Assembly (NCBI RefSeq): GCF_009730915.1
Contig: NC_052474.1
Coordinates: 20,309,501 to 20,373,500 of the forward strand
Source of the DNA: Dioscorea cayenensis subsp. rotundata
Lineage: Eukaryota; Streptophyta; Magnoliopsida; Dioscoreales; Dioscoreaceae
DNA: 64,000 bases
Direction: 5' to 3'
How positions within the stretch are numbered: position 1 is the first letter of the stretch; every line of letters starts with the position of its first letter. Shown here piece after piece: positions 6,029 through 60,717 of the stretch. The notes below the pieces were generated by a model that was not told the origin of the DNA, made no database searches, and worked only from the letters and a program-made list of their open reading frames with translations. A program made the position numbers and the translations under genes.

Positions 6029-6941
6029 TAATCAACAATCTGATCTTTTGTAGAGATGTGACGAATGAAGAGGGATTTCTTGGCTACCGAGTCTCAAACA
6101 AAATGAATATCAATTTCAATATGTTTCATATGAGCATGGGCGACAAGTTCCGCAGCTAGAAATGTGGCTCCGAGATTGTCACACCATACGGTTGGTTTGA
6201 GATCGGTTAATCCGATTTCACCAAGAAGTGATGTAATCCAACATAATTTAGCAAATGCAAGAGTGATACTCTTATATTCTGCTTCTGTACTAGAATGAAC
6301 AACCGTTAGATTTTTCTTAGAGCTCCAAGAAATGAGATTAGGACCCAAATAGATGGAATAACCATAGGTAGAGAGGTGATCATTGGGACAACCAGCCCAG
6401 TAAACATCAATGTAAGTAGTGAGAGTACGGTTTTGGGCTTTGGTTAAGGAAAGGCTATAGGTGGTGGTTGACCTCAAATACTAAAGAATTCATTTAATAG
6501 TAGTCCAAAACACATCAGTACGGTAATTAAGAAATTGTGAAAAAATTTTAACAATAAATTGAATATCATGATGAGTAAGGAAAAGATATTGCAAGGCTCC
6601 AACAGTATGATGATATTCAGCGGGGTCAGAAATGGGAACTCCATGGTTGTAAGATAGAGGTAGGGTGGGTGTCATGGGAGTAGGCACATGTTTGGAGCTA
6701 TCAAGATGAGTGTGGGTTAAAAGATCTTGTGTGTACTTGGTTTGGGTGAGATATAGGCAATTTAGTGTGAAATGTAGCTTCAATGCCAAGAAAATAATGT
6801 AGAGACCCAAGGTCTTTCAAGGAAAATGTGACATTTAGGTCATTAATAAGAGAAGAAAGAAAAGATTGTGAAGAATCTATAACCAAGATATCATCCACAT
6901 AGACAAAAAGAAAGGTAGTGTTAGTGGGAGTAGTGTGAATG
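6029..6941 (-). mobile_element. Copia element A: reverse transcriptase / RNase H remnant
   Basis: Minus-strand fragments match the Ty1/copia pol C-terminus. At 6701-6941 there is the RT segment with the YVDDILV catalytic motif and SLKDLG..HYFLGIE. At 6490-6810 is the connection region, in another frame. At 6094-6477 is RNase H with DVYWAGCPND, SWSSKK and SSTEAEY motifs and HIEIDIHFV. Frame changes between these pieces and a truncation at 6941, where Copia element B begins, show that it is dead. It sits in the spacer downstream of MYB copy A. Confidence 0.85.
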
Positions 6942-7453: not shown

Positions 7454-8843
7454 ATGAACTATGTTACAAGATTCGATGTGGAAAGGTTTGATGGAACTAG
7501 AAATTTCGGATTGTGGCAGCGGGTAAAAGATTTGCTAGTGCAGCAGGAGATGTTGAAAATATTATTAGAGACAAAGCCTCAAGCTTTGGAAGACCAAGTC
7601 TAGTTGGATTTACAAACAAGAGCGACGGCACTTATTCGGTTGTGTTCGACGGATGATGTTATGTATCACGTCATGGATCTCTCATCTCCAGTGGAGACCT
7701 GGAAACAATTGGAGAGTCGATATATGTCAAAATCTCTGACAAATAAGTTGTTTCTGAAGCAGAAATTGTACGACCTAAAGATGAAAGATGGTGCAAATTT
7801 GGTATAATATATCAATTTTTCAATTACACAGTCAGTGATTTACTAATAATTGAGGTTGGGATTAAAGATAAAGACAAAGATATGATTTTGATGTATCCTT
7901 TGTCACCTTCGTATAAGCATCTGGTGACCCCACTCACATGGGGGAAAGACACGCTCAATGTAGATGAGATCACTATGGCGTTGTTGGCCCACAATCAACG
8001 GAAGAAAAATAATGCTGAAGGTTTTCAAACGGAAGCGTTGTAATACTTGCATGTGAAAGTGAACCAGGAAACTAAGAGAAGGCAAGGGAAAGATGGTTAG
8101 CGCAAAAGGAATCCCATAGTCAGAAGATTTATTCAATGTTATAAGTGCCGACATATAAGGCATATTAGAAAAGACTGTCCAAACAAGAAGCAATAGATTG
8201 ATAAAAGGAACAGTAATTTATCTCAGTTTGCTAATGTGATTCAGCGCGGTTATTCAGATTGTAGTTATGGGGATCTTCTTTCAGTTTCATCATGTCAAAC
8301 CTCATATTCATGGATTTTGGATACGGGATGTTAGTTTCACATGACATCGAACAAGGACTAGTTTGATTCATACAAATCAGGGGATTTTTGTTTTGTCTTC
8401 ATGGGAAATAATAAAGCATGTGCTATTGCTGGAAAGGGACAAATCAATTTTCGGATGCATAATTCTGTTGTTCAGACTTTGTGTGATGTTAGACATGTTC
8501 CAGAATTAAAGAAGAATCTGATTTCTTCGGGTACTTTGCATGGAAACGGTTTTAGCTATAAAATCGAAAAGGATTGCATTGCGGTGAGTATGGATAGTTT
8601 GATAGTAATGAAAGGGAAAAGGAGAGCAAGGAATATTTACACGCTGACGAGAAATACAGTTGTAGGTGGAGTTGTTGTTGCAGTTACAAAATTAGATCAA
8701 GGCAATCACTACAGGGAAGTTCAAGCATTACTTGGACTTGATCAATGTCTCTAATGCTAAGGAGACATGGCACTCAACCTGTCCAGATAATGAGGAGCTC
8801 CCTGGTTTATATCTTTATAGGGTATATTTGTCAAGGTGGAGAT
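7454..8843 (+). pseudogene. Copia element B: gag and protease remnant
   Basis: The gag frame starts at 7454 with MNYVTRFDVERFDGTRNF and continues through the UBN2-type gag region, with stops near 7600 and 7805. Around 8140-8180 a CCHC zinc knuckle (CYKCRHIRHIRKDC) is intact. At about 8310-8335 an aspartic-protease DTG motif appears, followed by a stop, and then a pre-integrase-like region (8401-8700). Integrase, RT and RNase H are absent: the sequence passes within about 100 bases to the purine-rich tract AAGGTGGAGAT (8833-8843). The element is an internally deleted, stop-ridden copy. Confidence 0.8.
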
Positions 8844-33315: not shown

Positions 33316-34929
33316 TATTTATAGGTGTACCAGTAAATTTAATATGTTTCATATATTGCTATTGTAATATTTATATATTTAATTTTTAAGAAAATTTTCT
33401 AAATATATTTGAATTAAAATCAATTTTTTCATGAAATTTAACTTTTGAACATGAATATATTTTTGTAAATTTAGATAATAAATCTGTTTCCAAATCATAA
33501 AGGGAATTAAAATATGTTCCAAAAAGAAACCCAATCCATTTCTAAATCAACAGAAATTAATTCTATTTTAGAATTAAAATATGTTTTGAAATTTACTAAG
33601 TATGACTGTAGCGAATGTGTTCTAAATAGGAAAATGAATTATAAATCTCTAAAAGTTTCAAAACATTTAAAATAGACGTTTTGACATTTGAATTTATCCA
33701 ATAATTCCTCCTTTTTATGACATTTCAGCCAATGTAACTCACTCTATCCTTCAGTTTATTCAATCTTATAACATGTACTTCCAATTTAAAATGTATAATT
33801 TTTATTTAACATTGCGTGTTTTTGTATAACCATATAAGTTTTTCACTTAAGATATAGTACTTTTTCATTTAATATTTGACATGTCTGTTTAATATTATGT
33901 GTTTCAGCTTAAAAAATTGAGAGATATTTCCGTAAATGTCAGTTATATTTATAACCGAAAGTCAGAAAAATAAACTATCAGAAAAATGAGAGATCTTCAT
34001 TAAATAACTCATAAGGGTTTTTTGTGAATAACCAAACTTCAAAGGGACTATTTTTTTATTATTAGTTCTAAAAATAAATTAAATGACCAAATGTGAGATA
34101 TGTTTTATCACATCAAATGTAATTTATGAATTCTCACAGGCATCAAAATCAATAAATTGAACTTTTTTTTTTATAAAACGGACAAACCACTCACCTCAAA
34201 CAACTTTGTAAAAAAAAAGTTGATCTCTCCGTCACTTTATTTGTAAGAAAAAGAATTATTATCATTTTAATGTGAAGGGGTATGTATAGACGTTGAATTA
34301 ATACCTTAGTGCACATATGTTCTTATCCGTCTCCCAGGCAAAACACAATCACTGCATAGACCTACTCAACTCAAACAATGATCTGCAAAAAAAGTTGATC
34401 ACTTCATTACTCCATTTATAAGAAAAAGAGGTATAATCTTTCTAATATAAAGGGGTATGTATAGATGTGAGTTAATATTTTAACCCGGCCACATGTGCTT
34501 TTACTTGTCTCCTCAACCAGACACAATCAGGGTATAGATCATGTGTTAATAGGCCAAGCGATTGACTTATTTATTTTATCTTATAAAAAATGTACATTCA
34601 TAAAAAAAAAAATATATATATGTATATATACTATTGTCTTTTGTTTTTAGTTTTTCATCTTCTTATCCAATCTTCAAACATTTTTTGTCCGCATACACAC
34701 CCATCCACCAAAAAAATAAAAAAGTTAAAGCTTTGATTCTTTGAAGATCTGTATATCCCTGCATAATGGCAAACAACTTTATCTTTTTTTATTATTTTAG
34801 TTTGGCATCTTATCTGAGTAGCATCAGCCTCGTTATACTTTTATTTTTTTTAATTATTTTATTATAATAAAGCATGCATTGTCAATCTTCATTGGACTCT
34901 ATTGATAAAGCCCCCAAAATAATGCATCA
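33316..34929. other. AT-rich intergenic, diverged direct repeat
   Basis: No gene seen. 34200-34555 contains two diverged copies of a roughly 174-base unit (aaaagttgatc, aaggggtatgtatagacg/tg, cacaatca..gcatagac). The last 300 bases before the gap are low complexity. Confidence 0.4.
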
Positions 34930-35929
34930 NNNNNNNNNNNNNNNNNNNNNNNNNNNNNNNNNNNNNNNNNNNNNNNNNNNNNNNNNNNNNNNNNNNNNNN
35001 NNNNNNNNNNNNNNNNNNNNNNNNNNNNNNNNNNNNNNNNNNNNNNNNNNNNNNNNNNNNNNNNNNNNNNNNNNNNNNNNNNNNNNNNNNNNNNNNNNNN
35101 NNNNNNNNNNNNNNNNNNNNNNNNNNNNNNNNNNNNNNNNNNNNNNNNNNNNNNNNNNNNNNNNNNNNNNNNNNNNNNNNNNNNNNNNNNNNNNNNNNNN
35201 NNNNNNNNNNNNNNNNNNNNNNNNNNNNNNNNNNNNNNNNNNNNNNNNNNNNNNNNNNNNNNNNNNNNNNNNNNNNNNNNNNNNNNNNNNNNNNNNNNNN
35301 NNNNNNNNNNNNNNNNNNNNNNNNNNNNNNNNNNNNNNNNNNNNNNNNNNNNNNNNNNNNNNNNNNNNNNNNNNNNNNNNNNNNNNNNNNNNNNNNNNNN
35401 NNNNNNNNNNNNNNNNNNNNNNNNNNNNNNNNNNNNNNNNNNNNNNNNNNNNNNNNNNNNNNNNNNNNNNNNNNNNNNNNNNNNNNNNNNNNNNNNNNNN
35501 NNNNNNNNNNNNNNNNNNNNNNNNNNNNNNNNNNNNNNNNNNNNNNNNNNNNNNNNNNNNNNNNNNNNNNNNNNNNNNNNNNNNNNNNNNNNNNNNNNNN
35601 NNNNNNNNNNNNNNNNNNNNNNNNNNNNNNNNNNNNNNNNNNNNNNNNNNNNNNNNNNNNNNNNNNNNNNNNNNNNNNNNNNNNNNNNNNNNNNNNNNNN
35701 NNNNNNNNNNNNNNNNNNNNNNNNNNNNNNNNNNNNNNNNNNNNNNNNNNNNNNNNNNNNNNNNNNNNNNNNNNNNNNNNNNNNNNNNNNNNNNNNNNNN
35801 NNNNNNNNNNNNNNNNNNNNNNNNNNNNNNNNNNNNNNNNNNNNNNNNNNNNNNNNNNNNNNNNNNNNNNNNNNNNNNNNNNNNNNNNNNNNNNNNNNNN
35901 NNNNNNNNNNNNNNNNNNNNNNNNNNNNN
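34930..35929. other. Assembly gap of 1000 N
   Basis: Exactly 1000 unknown bases, a round number typical of a scaffold placeholder, so the real distance is unknown. Any apparent reading frame across it is an artefact. Confidence 0.99.
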
Positions 35930-36109
35930 ACAGACAGAAAATTGAACAGGCGAGTTGATAAATAAATATATTTATTAATTATATATTTTTTTATATTAGT
36001 ATTAATAAATAAATACCATTAATCAAAAATTGAAAATTAATTTTAATTAACAATTAATTTACTGGCCAACCAAACGCTATACTTTTTTCGGCCACACGAT
36101 TAACATAAT

Positions 36110-36303: not shown

Positions 36304-39300
36304 ATGAGAACCGCATCCATCTCACCTCTCCTCCTTGTGGTTCGAAGCAAGAAATCCCAACCCCAAAAGGTCTCTTTTTTGGTTTTTTCACCTCTAATTC
36401 AATTCTATTTAAGTTGCATCTCAAGTGCTTTTAATGCTTCAATGTCAAGGATTTCATCTTGTTTTCATATAATTTTTAGAGAAATTTATGGATTTTGATG
36501 GGTTGTAACCTTGAAAAACTTGCGCTTTTGCATTGTCTGTTGTTTTGGTGTTGAATTCAATGGTGAAGCAATGGATTTTTGTTTGAATTTATATGGTGCA
36601 AGTGATTCAACATCAACACTCTGAGACTAGATGAACTGAATCCAGATGACATTGGATTGTTTGAGTTTTTCCCTCTTTTAGAAGCAAGTTCACATTCTCT
36701 GCTGCTTGCTTGTTGTGCCTGATTATAGTTTGCTGAAATGTTATTTATGGACGAAAATTTGAATGTTAGATTTGATAAATGTTGAAAACACTGCCTCATT
36801 GATCTGTGATTGGTATTCATGAGATACTTACATGTGAGCCGCTAACTTTACAAACAGGACTTTTTTTTTTTAATTAGAAATTTTTGATGAGTTAGTTAAT
36901 TTGAAATATTTGTGCTATTGGAAATGTATTGGAGTTACTATATTTTTCAAACTTCAGCAATTTATCATGAAGTTTGATGGTTTGTGCTATTAGGGACTTG
37001 ATGAAGCGCCACCAAGAATTACATCCAACGTCAAGCAAAATTTGCAGTTTTTAAGGATATGGAGGGTAAGATATTTACTGCTTCAATTGTTCATTCTTCA
37101 CAAGTAGCTGGGGTTTCTTCGTTCATGTCATTAGGCTAAAGGACCTCGTTTTTATAAACAGGCATTACTCGAATGCTAAAAAAAAAATGGAGGTTTCTTA
37201 TATTTTTTTACTCATGTAATTCTTTCTCAAATTTTTGATTTTCATCTAGATTTGTTTGTATGATCATGGCCAAGTGATATGATACTTATATATCTGTTGG
37301 CATGACCAGTGGGAATCTCTCGTTGTCAGTGAACGCAAAATTCAAATTAAATGCTTGCTTTTATATTTGTGGGTTGACCATAAGATGAAATTAATTATCT
37401 AATGAATTTTCTGCAGGAGTTTCAAAAGCGGAAATCAAGTGCACCAAAGCCTACGACTAGGTATCGCAAAAAGAAAGCAGTGAAAGAGGAGCTTCCAGAA
37501 GATACAGAACTTTATCAAGACCCTACTTCAAAACTTTACTAGTCAGCACATCTTTACCTATGTTCAAGATTAATGCCATTTGATGATTTTGATGAATGCT
37601 TTGGAAAACTCAATTTACAAGTTTGTTGTTTAAGATATTTATGTTTCCTTATTTAGCACAAATCAGGGCTTGGAGACAGCTATTCCAGTACTGCTTGTTG
37701 ATGGGTACAATATGTGTGGTTATTGGCCGAAGCTAAAGAAGCATTTCATGAAGGGAAGACTTGATATGGCTCGTCAAAAGCTAATAGACGAGTTGATCAC
37801 ATTTAGTGTAATAAAAGGTGAATTATGTACGTGGCTTTTAACATTTGATTTTGTTCTGTTGTTTGCTTTTGTGAGAGAGCTCAATCAACGAGTAGCCATA
37901 TTGCATTGGGTGGTAAGTTTGAGGACACTGCTGTTTACTAAACAACAGTTGCTTGTAATGTCAATTCGTTTACAGAAATGATGTGTTGCATGTTATACCC
38001 CATCTGTCTACTCTTGCATGTTTATATTATTAGCAGTAAGCATGCATGTACTATATTCCTGGTTGCTAGTTAACATGCATAAAGTGAAAGTATTTTGATG
38101 AGCTGGTAATTTTGATCAAGAACTCATGATCTAAGTTGTTGTTTGATAGTTAAGGATTACCAATTTAACTTTCTGGATATTGTGCAGAGGTAAAAGTTGT
38201 GGTGGTATTTGATGCTATGATGTCGGGCCTAGCAACTCATAAGGAATCTTTTGCAGGGTAGGATTGTTTTCCTGTTCATTGAGCTGGCCGTTTGCAATAC
38301 TAAATCCTCTGAAATAAGTTCTCTTTACCATGTCTGATTCATTTCCTGCTTTCTTGAATCAACTTCAGATTTCCAATTTAGCTTTCTGATTGGACTTCTT
38401 TATCATGACACCTGCTCATTAAATGCTATTAGAATCTTAATATAAATCTTATTTTGGGCTTGCAGTCCAATGTGTTACGGTTCTGGTTATTGAGTTCTTT
38501 GTTGAGATAATTTTTCATTACATTACTTTCTTATCTCCGTCATTTTGTATTTTGTTTACTAGCATGGCTTATTTTGAATATTGCAGGATTGATGTAGTTT
38601 TTTCAGGTGAATCTTGTGCAGATGCATGGATTGAGAAAGAGGCAAGCCATTTTGCTGTTGTGTCATGTAATTATAAATTTGTTTCTTAGAACCATTATGC
38701 AAATTAATCATATTGCAACATTATATGCCACATTATATAGCCTCCAAAACCTTCTCATCTTGTGTGCTTCACCAATAGATTGTGCATATGACAAATTCCA
38801 TTATTTACTGATGGTTGGTCACAGCTTGCTTTGTTCACTTGTACAGGTTGTTGCTTTGAAGGTGGACGGCTGTCCCAAAGTATGGGTTGTGACATCTGAT
38901 TCCGTCCAGCAACAAGCAGCACATGGAGCTGTAAGTGCCTTAATTCAGAGTAGACTCTTGAAATTACTTTCCATTTATTTATTTATTTATTTTACACTTT
39001 CAAAACAATCTTTCCTCCAATTCAGCATTCCCTGTGTGCAACCACATATGCAACTTCCCTTACTGATTAGATGACCTCTTTTCTCTGTATCATCTTACAC
39101 AAGAGTATTCATAGATGCATAGTACACCTACCTTCTAACCACTTGACAAATGCACTATAACTTCATAAGAACTGTCATTTCTTTATAAATGAGGCATCTT
39201 TGTGTTGGTTCTTTTGTCAATGCATGATTGATGCATGGAAAGTAACTAATTTATCTTTTTATAATTAATCTATTTATATTTTCCAGGGTGCATTTGTTTG

Positions 39301-43839: not shown

Positions 43840-44506
43840 AAAGGTATACATATAAATATGTAATTTTTAACTATTATTATTATTTTTATTATATAAATAT
43901 CAACAAATCACAACTTCAACTTTTATTGTGAGAGTGAGAGAAAGTTCAAGTCTCGCCATTTTACTTAGAAAAAAAAATGAGTTACGAGCTTTTTATTGCA
44001 GAGGTGGCTAGTGCTTAATTGTAATTTTTTTTTTATTTTAAACTTTATATTAATTATATATGGTGCAAAGAATAATAGTGCAAAAGATAATAAATAAATA
44101 AATAAATAAAGATAATACAAAAAACCTTATACATATGGTGCAAACAATAATAAGAAATGACATTAACGAAACATAAAGGGTGATTAATATAACTAAACAA
44201 ATTAAAAGAGTGCAGTTTGGTAATTATAAAAACTTTGATAAACATTAAGAGTTAATTACTATATATAAAACAATTAAGGTACAAGAGCTTTGCCTTCCAT
44301 CATCTGCATTAGAAGTGAGGGTGCTTGCAAGCTGTCCTTCTTAAGGTCTCTTTCTCATCTTTAACTCCTGAATGAAGACCCATCTCCATTGACAAGGATA
44401 GAGAAAGAGAAAGACAAAGACAAGCATGCATACTCAAAGCTTTCTTCTTATCTTTTTTTCACCACTTGCTTCCAACTTAAATTTAAAAGGTGGAGTTAAA
44501 AAGCAA
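40797..44506. other. AT-rich intergenic, no gene
   Basis: No supported exon in about 3.7 kb. 41820-41870 carries 'cctatgcctaaggccgggcctg', a word common at ends of plant hAT elements. A (TA)n tract lies at 43808-43836 and an (AAAT)n tract at about 44090-44110. The promoter of the NAC gene must lie in the last part. Confidence 0.45.
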
Positions 44507-44515
44507 ATGAAGTGA
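44507..44515 (+). promoter_or_regulatory. Minimal two-codon uORF before the NAC gene
   Basis: ATG AAG TGA ends 2 bases before the NAC start codon at 44518 and is in another frame. If the leader includes this ATG, ribosomes would terminate just before the main start, so it could lower or condition translation. The transcription start is not known. Confidence 0.35.
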
Positions 44516-44517
44516 TC

Positions 44518-45610
44518 ATGATTCATGATGATAATAATAATAATACGAGTGATGATCCATTAATGGCTCTCCAACTTGCTTTCCATGGAGAAGTTCAAGA
44601 TCATCATGCTGAAGATAACCATCAAGATGACCTTCTCATGCCCGGCTTTCGCTTTCATCCTACCGATGAAGAGCTCATCGACTTCTATCTTCGCCGAAAG
44701 CTTGAAGGAAAGAGCTTCATCATCGACTTCATTCCTTTCATCAATCTTTATAGCTATGATCCTTGGGACCTCCCTGGTATCTATCTATCTATCAATCTAT
44801 CTCTCTCTCTATATATATATATATCCTCATGTATATATATGATAAATATTCTCTAAGTTTATGTGAGTATTGGTTTTTAATGTAATGCATGATATATAGC
44901 ATGGGGCATAATTGGAGACAAGGAATGGTACTTTTATGTTCCAAGAGACCGAAAATATCGAAGTGGTGATCGACCAAATAGAGTGACAAACTCAGGTTAT
45001 TGGAAGGCCACTGGAGCTGATCGAAAAATCAAAGCGGAGAATTCTCGGGAAATCGGTCTAAAAAGGACTCTTGTCTTCTACACCGGCAAGGCCCCGAAAG
45101 GCTCTCGTACTAGTTGGATCATGCATGAGTATCGGTTGCTAAAGATCAAGACCGATCAACTTCATAAGGTACACACACTTATATATATTTACTCAGAAAA
45201 ATTTTAGGGTTTTCGATTACTTATAATGTTTTCCAAACATTATGATCTTTTAGGTTGAGCTTTCTCTTTGTCGAGTTTATAAAAGAGCAGGTGAGAACTC
45301 ACAATGCTCTGATACGGTGTCAACCAAAGTATCCCAATCTACCAGAAGTGCATCAAGCAAAAGATACAAACTGAGCTCAACAACATTTGGAAGTTGTTCT
45401 TCATCATTAGATTCAGAGAAGTTTGTTTGGCACAAGAACAACAACTTCATTGAAGCAAGTACTACTACTACTACTTCTCAAGCTCCATCAATGGGTGATA
45501 ATATGACTCATTTCTTCGATTCTGAAAGCCGAAGTGATCATTGCATTGATGAACTTGGTAGCTTAGTAGGGTTCTATAACCAAAGTTTGCCGAAAGGTGA
45601 AATCATTTAA
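44518..45610 (+). CDS. NAC transcription factor, LOV1/ANAC035 type
   Basis: Exons 44518-44776, 44900-45168 and 45254-45610 encode 294 residues, the usual NAC three-exon plan. The NAC domain runs from about residue 40 to 190: subdomain [21 protein letters not shown] (43-62), B with [10 protein letters not shown] with [21 protein letters not shown] with [13 protein letters not shown] and [18 protein letters not shown], and E with LCRVYKR. The order [15 protein letters not shown] and GxRTSWIM(H/N)EYRL matches the LOV1/ANAC035 group, which in Arabidopsis delays flowering and raises cold tolerance. The C-terminal region is Ser/Thr rich with acidic patches, as in NAC activation domains, and there is no membrane segment. 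The start could alternatively be the in-frame ATG at 44563. The 17 N-terminal residues before it are Asp/Asn rich. It is convergent with the AGPase-like gene. Confidence 0.92.
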
Positions 45611-46356: not shown

Positions 46357-48373
46357 CTAAATGATGCTGTTATCAGGGATCACTGCATTCTTCAAAACAG
46401 TAACAATGCCACCAGAGATGATATATCCTTCCACTTCTCTTTCACTTTCTTGGACTCCATTTGAGTTACAAATCTAAAGAAACACAAGAAAAATGCTTGT
46501 TAATGATCATAAAAAAGAAAAATAATAATTCTTGACAAGTATTATAAACTTTATAAGTACCTTGACATTTTTTCCTATGCATGCATTCTTATCGATTATC
46601 GCCTTCCGAATAAGAGTTTGTTCTCCGATCCCGATGGGAGTACATGAACCAAGTTCCTTTTGGTTCTTCAAATCTGTCTATTAATCACAAACAAGAACCA
46701 TTTAAGAAAAGAAAACTAATAAACATATGAAAATGATCATCAAAAAGAAAAAAAAAAATGCATATATACATGATGGAAGTCACCGCCCATGATGAATGAA
46801 TCCTCAATCACAACCCCATCAGCGATAAACGTCCTCATACCAATGATCGAATTGCTTATTTTGCACCTCTATCTTAAAAGAATCAAATAGAGAAAGTTAT
46901 AAGTTTTGAAGTATATATAATTTATAAACAATAATTAATCAAGTTACATACATTTATGATGCAACCATCACCAATTATGCTTTGACTTATATTTGCATGT
47001 GAGATTTGAGTTGGTGGTAAGCACAATGGCATGGTGTAGATTGGAAAGTCTTGACCAATTAAACTACAAACAAGGCAAATATTTTAGTGATAGTTCTAAA
47101 AATTTCGGCAAAAAATACTATCACTTACTTGATTTCCATGCTGGCATGATAAAATGATTCAATGCTATTCATATCCTCCCATTTTCCATCAAACATGTAA
47201 GCTTGAACCTTACATATCAGAAATTTTAAATATTATCAAATTAATTATTGCCAAAAAAGAAATAATCCGAAAGATCGATCGATCATTCACTTAATTACCT
47301 TCATTCCCATCGAAATCGCGCCTTTTATTACCTCATTCTCAAAGTCATTGGCTTTAGGTAGGTACTCCTTCAAAATCTTCACCATTGAATCTTTCTTGAA
47401 TACATATATTCCCATGTTTCTACCACCAATATCCTTATCCCTCAAACATCAATATAATTAATAAAATTCATGAAACTTCAGTAATATTTTTCGTTATACA
47501 AAAAAGTACTAATTCTTACCATACTGGATTCTTCTTTAAATCCAAGAATTCGGCTTTCATTATCTAGTATCAAGAAACCATAGCTTGAAGAACTAGAGTT
47601 AATCTGATATGTAGATGAAACCGACACAGTGATATCTGCTTCACTATCTCTATGAGTCTTTATAAGTTCCCGGTAATCCATATTATAAAGATGATGGCCG
47701 GGAAGTATTAAAAACTCGATCGCCGGATGCTTTTCGAGTAACCACAACCATTTTCGAACCATGTCGACATTTCCCTGTGTTAGACATATATATAAATATA
47801 TAGTAGAATTTACCTTTAATTAAGTATTTGAATTATATTATATTGGATCGAAAACAAAATAAGAGATCGACCTTATACCAACAATGATTTTCGAGGTTTT
47901 GGCAAGCTGCAAGAACATCAATGAAGCCTTCTTTTCCAAGAACTCCAATGTTGGAATAAGCTCTTGAAACATGAGAATTGAGTGAAGTGGAGTTGGTCTG
48001 AGTTAAAGTATATATCTTAGTGATATCACTATTGATGCAATTACTAATAGCAATGTCGATAAGCCGATAACGAGCTCCAATTGGTATTGCAGCTTCTGAT
48101 CTCCTCTTCGTCAATGGATATAGTTTCGACTCTGGCCCGTCTCCTAGTATTAATGCCACAACACTCTACAACAACATATATGCTCTTCAATTAATTAGAG
48201 AAATATAAAACACAATGAAGAACATGAAATAGCATGAAATAACATGCCTGATTCAATGGAGGTATCAATCTAGTGCTATTGTGAGAGGAATTGCTTGAGT
48301 TGCATATAGTTAACCGACGGAAACTTCTCGAAAAGCCATGGAAACAAAGAGTACTGGAATGCAAAACACACAT
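46357..48373 (-). CDS. AGPase large-subunit-like protein, catalytic motifs degenerate
   Basis: Nine minus-strand exons (48373-48248, 48165-47872, 47774-47520, 47433-47299, 47208-47129, 47063-46952, 46868-46770, 46677-46561, 46473-46357) join without stops to 444 residues. Residues 1-42 have no acidic residue and many Ser, like a plastid transit peptide. The nucleotidyltransferase domain (about 44-300) and left-handed beta-helix domain (about 305-444; PIGIGEQTLIRKAIIDKNA, GVQESER..EGYIISGG) clearly follow ADP-glucose pyrophosphorylase large subunits, which supply glucosyl donor for starch in plastids. Key residues differ: the GGGxGTRL loop reads LGDGPESKL, KPAVP reads EAAIP, the metal-binding Asp of SGDHLYRMDY is His (LPGHHLYNMDY, His167), and the sugar-phosphate-binding EKP is EES with about 25 residues missing after it. 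It is also shorter than the usual 500 or so residues. Intron 1 starts GC (AATCAG|gcatgt). Intact frame argues for a non-catalytic or regulatory subunit; young decay is possible. Confidence 0.85.

Positions 48374-54997: not shown

Positions 54998-60717
<5,720 letters not shown>

Follow-up and report, generated by a model that had tools for sequence, protein, structure and literature searches.

An AGPSII-like paralogue of the AGPase small subunit with an open frame and a broken catalytic pocket in Dioscorea cayenensis subsp. rotundata

An AGPase-like gene in a stretch of 64,000 nucleotides of the yam genome (C4:20309501-20373500, referred to as the window) very probably belongs to the AGPSII (APS2-type) paralogues of the AGPase small subunit. 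The best explanation of its features, and the one that we consider probable, is a non-catalytic pseudoenzyme retained for a non-catalytic role. The computed basis of this reading is fourfold: small-subunit ancestry, an open nine-exon frame, a broken catalytic pocket, and better preservation of conserved sites and of sites in the beta-helix.

Gene structure and small-subunit ancestry

The gene lies on the minus strand between positions 48373 and 46357, where nine exons, with junctions chosen by homology and splice dinucleotides, join in frame to encode 444 residues (Table 1). The frame of 1335 bp contains no stop and no frameshift. The N-terminal 42 residues from exon 1 include 9 Ser and 4 Arg, are devoid of Asp and Glu, and are thus transit-peptide-like by composition. 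The eight introns measure 65-97 bases each. Seven begin with GT and one with GC (intron 1), and their 3′ ends are TAG or CAG in six cases and AAG in two (introns 3 and 4). Owing to the GC start of intron 1 and the AAG ends of introns 3 and 4, splicing of the predicted introns is plausible only. A preliminary description of the locus had considered all nine exons open and spliceable; the open frame holds, and spliceability is reduced to plausibility.

Table 1. Positions of the AGPSII-like gene and of other features in the window
Feature	Positions	Strand	Content
Exon 1	48248..48373	-	start codon, N-terminal 42 residues
Intron 1	48166..48247	-	GC-AG, CAG|gcatgt ... tgtag; donor otherwise consensus
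Exon 2	47872..48165	-	nucleotide loop LGDGPESKL; SEAAIP replaces AKPAVP; R41 and R53 kept; R83 changed to Ser
Exon 3	47520..47774	-	GNVDMV replaces GTADAV; LPGHHLY with His167 at Asp145; EES replaces EKP
Exon 4	47299..47433	-	remainder of transferase domain; 22 residues lost around 5′ junction
Exon 5	47129..47208	-	WEDM; Asp280 kept
Exon 6	46952..47063	-	beta-helix domain begins; 8 residues lost at 5′ junction
Exon 7	46770..46868	-	beta-helix
Exon 8	46561..46677	-	beta-helix; D403 and K404 kept
Exon 9	46357..46473	-	beta-helix end; K441 kept; stop codon
NAC transcription factor gene	44500..45207	+	two NAM domain pieces; convergent with the AGPSII-like gene
YacP-like NYN domain gene piece	37634..37981	+	
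Poly(ADP-ribose) glycohydrolase gene pieces	56762..60356	+	PARG N and C domains
Run of unread bases	~34920..35930		assembly gap or withheld bases
Open stretch	6094..6480	-	Copia-type retrotransposon-like by eye
Open stretch	8362..8754	+	Copia-type retrotransposon-like by eye

Among the neighbouring features, the frame of the NAC gene apparently continues to about position 45610. The open stretch on the minus strand at 6094 gave no Pfam match at 0.001, and a tRNA scan of the window found none.

The preliminary description had called the gene large-subunit-like, a classification that is contradicted by scores, diagnostic sites, introns and trees. In phmmer comparisons, the protein reached 435.7 and 431.8 bits with plant small subunits (1YP2 and 9xuk chain A) and 320.8 bits with a plant large subunit (9xuk chain B). 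Across the 148 columns that distinguish those small and large subunits, the small-subunit state is found at 54, the large-subunit state at 20 and neither at 74. Derived states common to the yam protein amount to 9 of 31 for the small subunit and 4 of 54 for the large subunit.

The search of the genome (584 Mb, 2249 contigs) revealed a small-subunit gene (AGPS-I) on C3, which is open over 449 modelled residues, the transit-peptide part lying outside the model, and identical to APS1 at 412 of these 449. Four large-subunit loci, on C15, C17, C19 and C20, cover 404-434 of the 434 residues of APL1. Order and phases (0,0,0,0,2,0,0,0) of the eight introns in the window gene are the same as in the C3 gene, and six of the eight occupy the identical alignment column; the third and fifth introns adjoin the two deletions, which leave their exact column uncertain. 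PMC5259687 counts 12-15 exons in large-subunit genes and, for most species, 9 in small-subunit genes, with 8 in Arabidopsis and 11 in T. urartu as exceptions.

When the window protein was used as the query, the genome search yielded 18 matches among the best candidates scored. Nine are its own exons, and the other nine belong to the C3 gene, a relic on C19 and the large-subunit loci, so that one copy of the AGPSII type was seen. The relic (C19:19091912-19092151) derives from a small-subunit gene and spans about 78 residues, which align with residues 17-94 of APS1 at 74% identity. Over 68 codons the match is open, and a longer match has three stops; further exons were not found within the 9.5 kb examined.

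Phylogenetic trees were calculated without and with AtAPS2, for which a provisional sequence was used, so that the shared-state and clade results, like all comparisons with APS2 presented here, are provisional. The main trees comprised 11 of 80 cyanobacterial rows as well as rows from the yam genome. In these, the window protein grouped with small subunits, the support being 97/90 when APS2 was left out and 97/91 when it was included, and not with the large-subunit APL genes with which the preliminary description had proposed to compare it. It fell within the small-subunit clade but outside AGPS-I, on a long branch adjoining the latter, and formed a clade with APS2 at 100/100, based on this single provisional sequence. 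Forcing the protein to the large subunits cost 5.0 and 5.2 log units, respectively. The corresponding AU p values of 0.0735 and 0.0674 mean that the large-subunit grouping is disfavoured, yet not formally rejected. A first, poorer tree with long branches contained 14 of the 80 cyanobacterial rows and one large subunit, the yam rows being absent. Without APS2, it joined the window protein to small subunits at 93/80 and did not reject a grouping with the large subunit (p 0.38). With APS2, window protein and APS2 grouped at 99/96 and the large-subunit grouping was rejected (p 0.026), under a constraint that also parts the window protein from APS2.

Neither clade nor gene structure, as judged from scores, sites, introns and trees, assigns the gene to the large subunits. 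The view that it is a divergent large subunit turned regulatory pseudoenzyme draws on the AU tests, including that of the poorer set, and on large subunits known to have lost catalysis (APL3 and APL4; PMC4136846), but is most improbable given nine exons as opposed to 12-15 (PMC5259687) and the scores, diagnostic sites, introns and trees that indicate a small subunit. What survives from the regulatory pseudoenzyme of large-subunit type envisaged in the preliminary description is a pseudoenzyme with an intact frame, in keeping with the lack of stops and the non-neutral patterns described below; the large-subunit origin does not.

Catalytic pocket and effector sites

The yam protein contains both domains of the AGPase fold, an NTP transferase domain (PF00483, 130.9 bits against a cut-off of 21.2) and a GLGC left-handed beta-helix (PF25247, 152.7 bits against a cut-off of 27). 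It missed the curated GlgC equivalog profiles with 421.5 against a cut-off of 537 and 308.5 against a cut-off of 424.9. Active-site residues, numbered as in 1YP2, were compared with 84 AGPases that were assumed to be active: 80 from cyanobacteria (the best 80 of at least 490 confirmed matches), three plant small subunits and one plant large subunit. In one cyanobacterial row (L035), the loop deviates at position 32.

R33, K43, D145 and K198 are each invariant in 84 of 84 compared AGPases, and all four are changed in the yam protein. His167 takes the place of Asp145, presumably the catalytic residue, Glu66 that of Lys43 (KPAVP), and Glu222 that of Lys198 (EKP), which we take to be a sugar-phosphate residue. 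Of the residues with roles in catalysis or substrate binding, R33, K43, Q118, T120, D145, K198 and S229 are altered, and D280 and E197 are kept. Moreover, the exon 3/4 junction lacks 22 residues (204-225) and the exon 5/6 junction 8 (295-302), and small gaps occur at 90-91 and 385. An overlooked exon carrying the lost 204-225 stretch was considered and rejected, as inspection by eye of the intron 3 frames disclosed nothing like it. The LGDGPESKL loop and the three substitutions mentioned in the preliminary description were thus recovered, and its deletion of about 25 residues corresponds to the 22 missing close after K198.

His167 at Asp145 and Glu222 at Lys198 speak against a catalytic AGPase. 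That the enzyme is active by means of an atypical catalytic site, to which the retention of Asp280 and Glu197 might point, is hardly credible in view of the change of all four invariant residues and the loss of 22 residues shortly after K198.

Effector-site residues present a mixed picture. In maize, R107, R119, D469, K470 and K507 constitute the first sulfate site (PMC6109180). With a constant offset of 66, they map to R41, R53, D403, K404 and K441 of 1YP2, and all five are kept in the yam protein, a retention that is not significant by itself (approx. 0.16, given that 97 of 140 sites are kept overall). In the second sulfate site, three of five residues are changed (R83, Q314 and R316) and R53 and H84 are kept; at position Q314, Arg is found in 80 of 84 compared sequences.

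A non-catalytic, retained small subunit would be produced and fold as an AGPase subunit in plastids, and would be incapable of ADP-glucose synthesis. Such a dead subunit, still able to fold, might be imported, perhaps assemble and bind effectors. It would then most likely serve other AGPase subunits, or a different plastid protein, as a partner in binding or assembly.

Selection or decay

Sequence conservation is unevenly distributed over the protein. The 84 sequences have 152 invariant columns, of which the yam protein keeps 70 of 121 in the catalytic domain (12 gapped, 39 changed) and 27 of 31 in the beta-helix, the latter bearing out the well-kept beta-helix of the preliminary description. 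At aligned sites where three small subunits agree, the small-subunit residue is retained in 97 of 140 cases if the site is invariant, in 47 of 81 if it is strongly conserved, in 18 of 38 if intermediate and in 28 of 97 if variable; retention in the first two classes together (144/221) differs from that at variable sites (28/97) with a p value of 2.6e-9.

Window protein and C3 small subunit are identical at 204 of 417 residues. The two genes differ at 29% of the 0-fold sites (228 of 786) and at 63% of the 4-fold sites (46 of 73). The NG86 method returned a dN of 0.41 and an undefined dS, the synonymous sites being saturated. Simulated neutral decay to 49% identity, in which indels were not simulated, introduced a mean of 13.8 stops and left 0 of 400 runs stop-free. 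In simulations to lesser divergence, likewise without indels, frames were still open in 23 of 400 runs at 90% identity, 3 of 400 at 80% and 0 of 400 at 70%. As no frame stayed open in the simulation to 49% identity and 0-fold sites differ less than 4-fold sites, a fresh pseudogene is unlikely. A recent decaying duplicate, one of the outcomes that the preliminary description had named as fatal to its proposal, was rejected on account of the low identity to the C3 small subunit, the saturated synonymous sites and the neutral simulations. These results favour selection on a folded protein during a large part of its history; the conserved-site gradient may in part be older than the loss of catalysis.

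A different fate would be that of an old AGPSII copy that was recently freed from selection in this lineage and is decaying, its frame being open by chance. K43, Q118, T120, K198, S229 and R316 are lost in the yam protein though the provisional AtAPS2 sequence keeps them, and the 22-residue deletion and the GC donor fit this picture as well. In addition, AGPSII genes were reported to be weakly expressed and possibly to turn into pseudogenes (PMC5133247, PMC4136846), and a short neutral phase is compatible with the 23 simulated frames open at 90% identity. We nevertheless regard such decay as rather unlikely in the face of 1335 bp without stop or frameshift, the rarity of open frames in the simulations at 80% and 70% identity, and the contrasting state of the C19 small-subunit relic, a single fragment with stops. 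The observations that weigh against retention as a non-catalytic subunit, our preferred explanation, are the low expression and possible pseudogenization just mentioned, the reported lack of functional complexes with APS2, the GC donor and the AU p value of 0.07.

The AGPSII group and related subunits

AGPSII is a published group, to which the window gene very probably adds one member; the group's representative in Arabidopsis, APS2, lacks activity (PMC5133247). The preliminary description, which held that the changes go beyond the known ones, had overlooked this inactive protein. According to the literature, AGPSII genes show little or no expression in banana, tomato and Arabidopsis and are possibly becoming pseudogenes, and absence of enzyme activity and low expression are reported for AtAPS2 and others (PMC5133247, PMC4136846). 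APS2 was described as being in the process of pseudogenization (PMC4136846) and is considered incapable of forming functional complexes (PMC3207819). An Ulmus gene named APS2, possibly of the AGPSII group, was reported to be salt-induced at one time point (PMC8122946). Six APS2-like sequences were set aside in another published study.

The divergence of the yam protein from AGPS-I and the loss of further catalytic residues besides the D145H exchange accord with AGPSII membership. Its identity to the provisional AtAPS2 sequence is 51.5% over 396 columns. Of 71 states otherwise unseen in the 84 AGPases, 25 are common to both proteins, including the exchange of Asp145 for His; 5000 shuffles gave a mean of 4.5 and a maximum of 13.

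It is conceivable, albeit tentative, that AGPSII has been a conserved non-catalytic subunit of non-grass angiosperms since before the monocot-eudicot split, for which PMC5259687 quotes an age of 140-150 million years. The group, the yam protein included, might then supply a metabolite-sensing or assembly partner in which the effector pocket (R41, R53, D403, K404 and K441) has outlived the chemistry, as opposed to the dying gene suspected in the literature. A limited literature search, with few subscription papers in reach, found no description of AGPSII as a functional pseudoenzyme. The group has been called a possible pseudogene in print, and the pattern in the window gene suggests selection as a protein after the loss of catalysis. 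Retention of a catalytically dead small subunit would have implications for the regulation of AGPase.

Comparison with related subunits places the yam protein as follows. AGPS-I (APS1, potato 1YP2 and the C3 copy) shares its domain order and its intron order and phases, whereas all checked catalytic residues are kept there. Bacterial GlgD is an AGPase-like subunit with a regulatory instead of a catalytic function; the window protein is distant from it (147.8 bits, below the curated cut-off of 236.6). For the plant AGPase subunits APL3 and APL4, loss of catalysis has been described as well (PMC4136846). They differ from the window gene in subfamily and gene structure. The AGPSII proteins (APS2 At1g05610, potato AGPS2 and banana MaAGP3) resemble it in small-subunit ancestry, high divergence and lost catalysis. 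In contrast to the provisional APS2 sequence, the yam protein lacks the six residues named above that APS2 keeps, and its gap is the larger one, extending over 204-225 as compared with 213-217.
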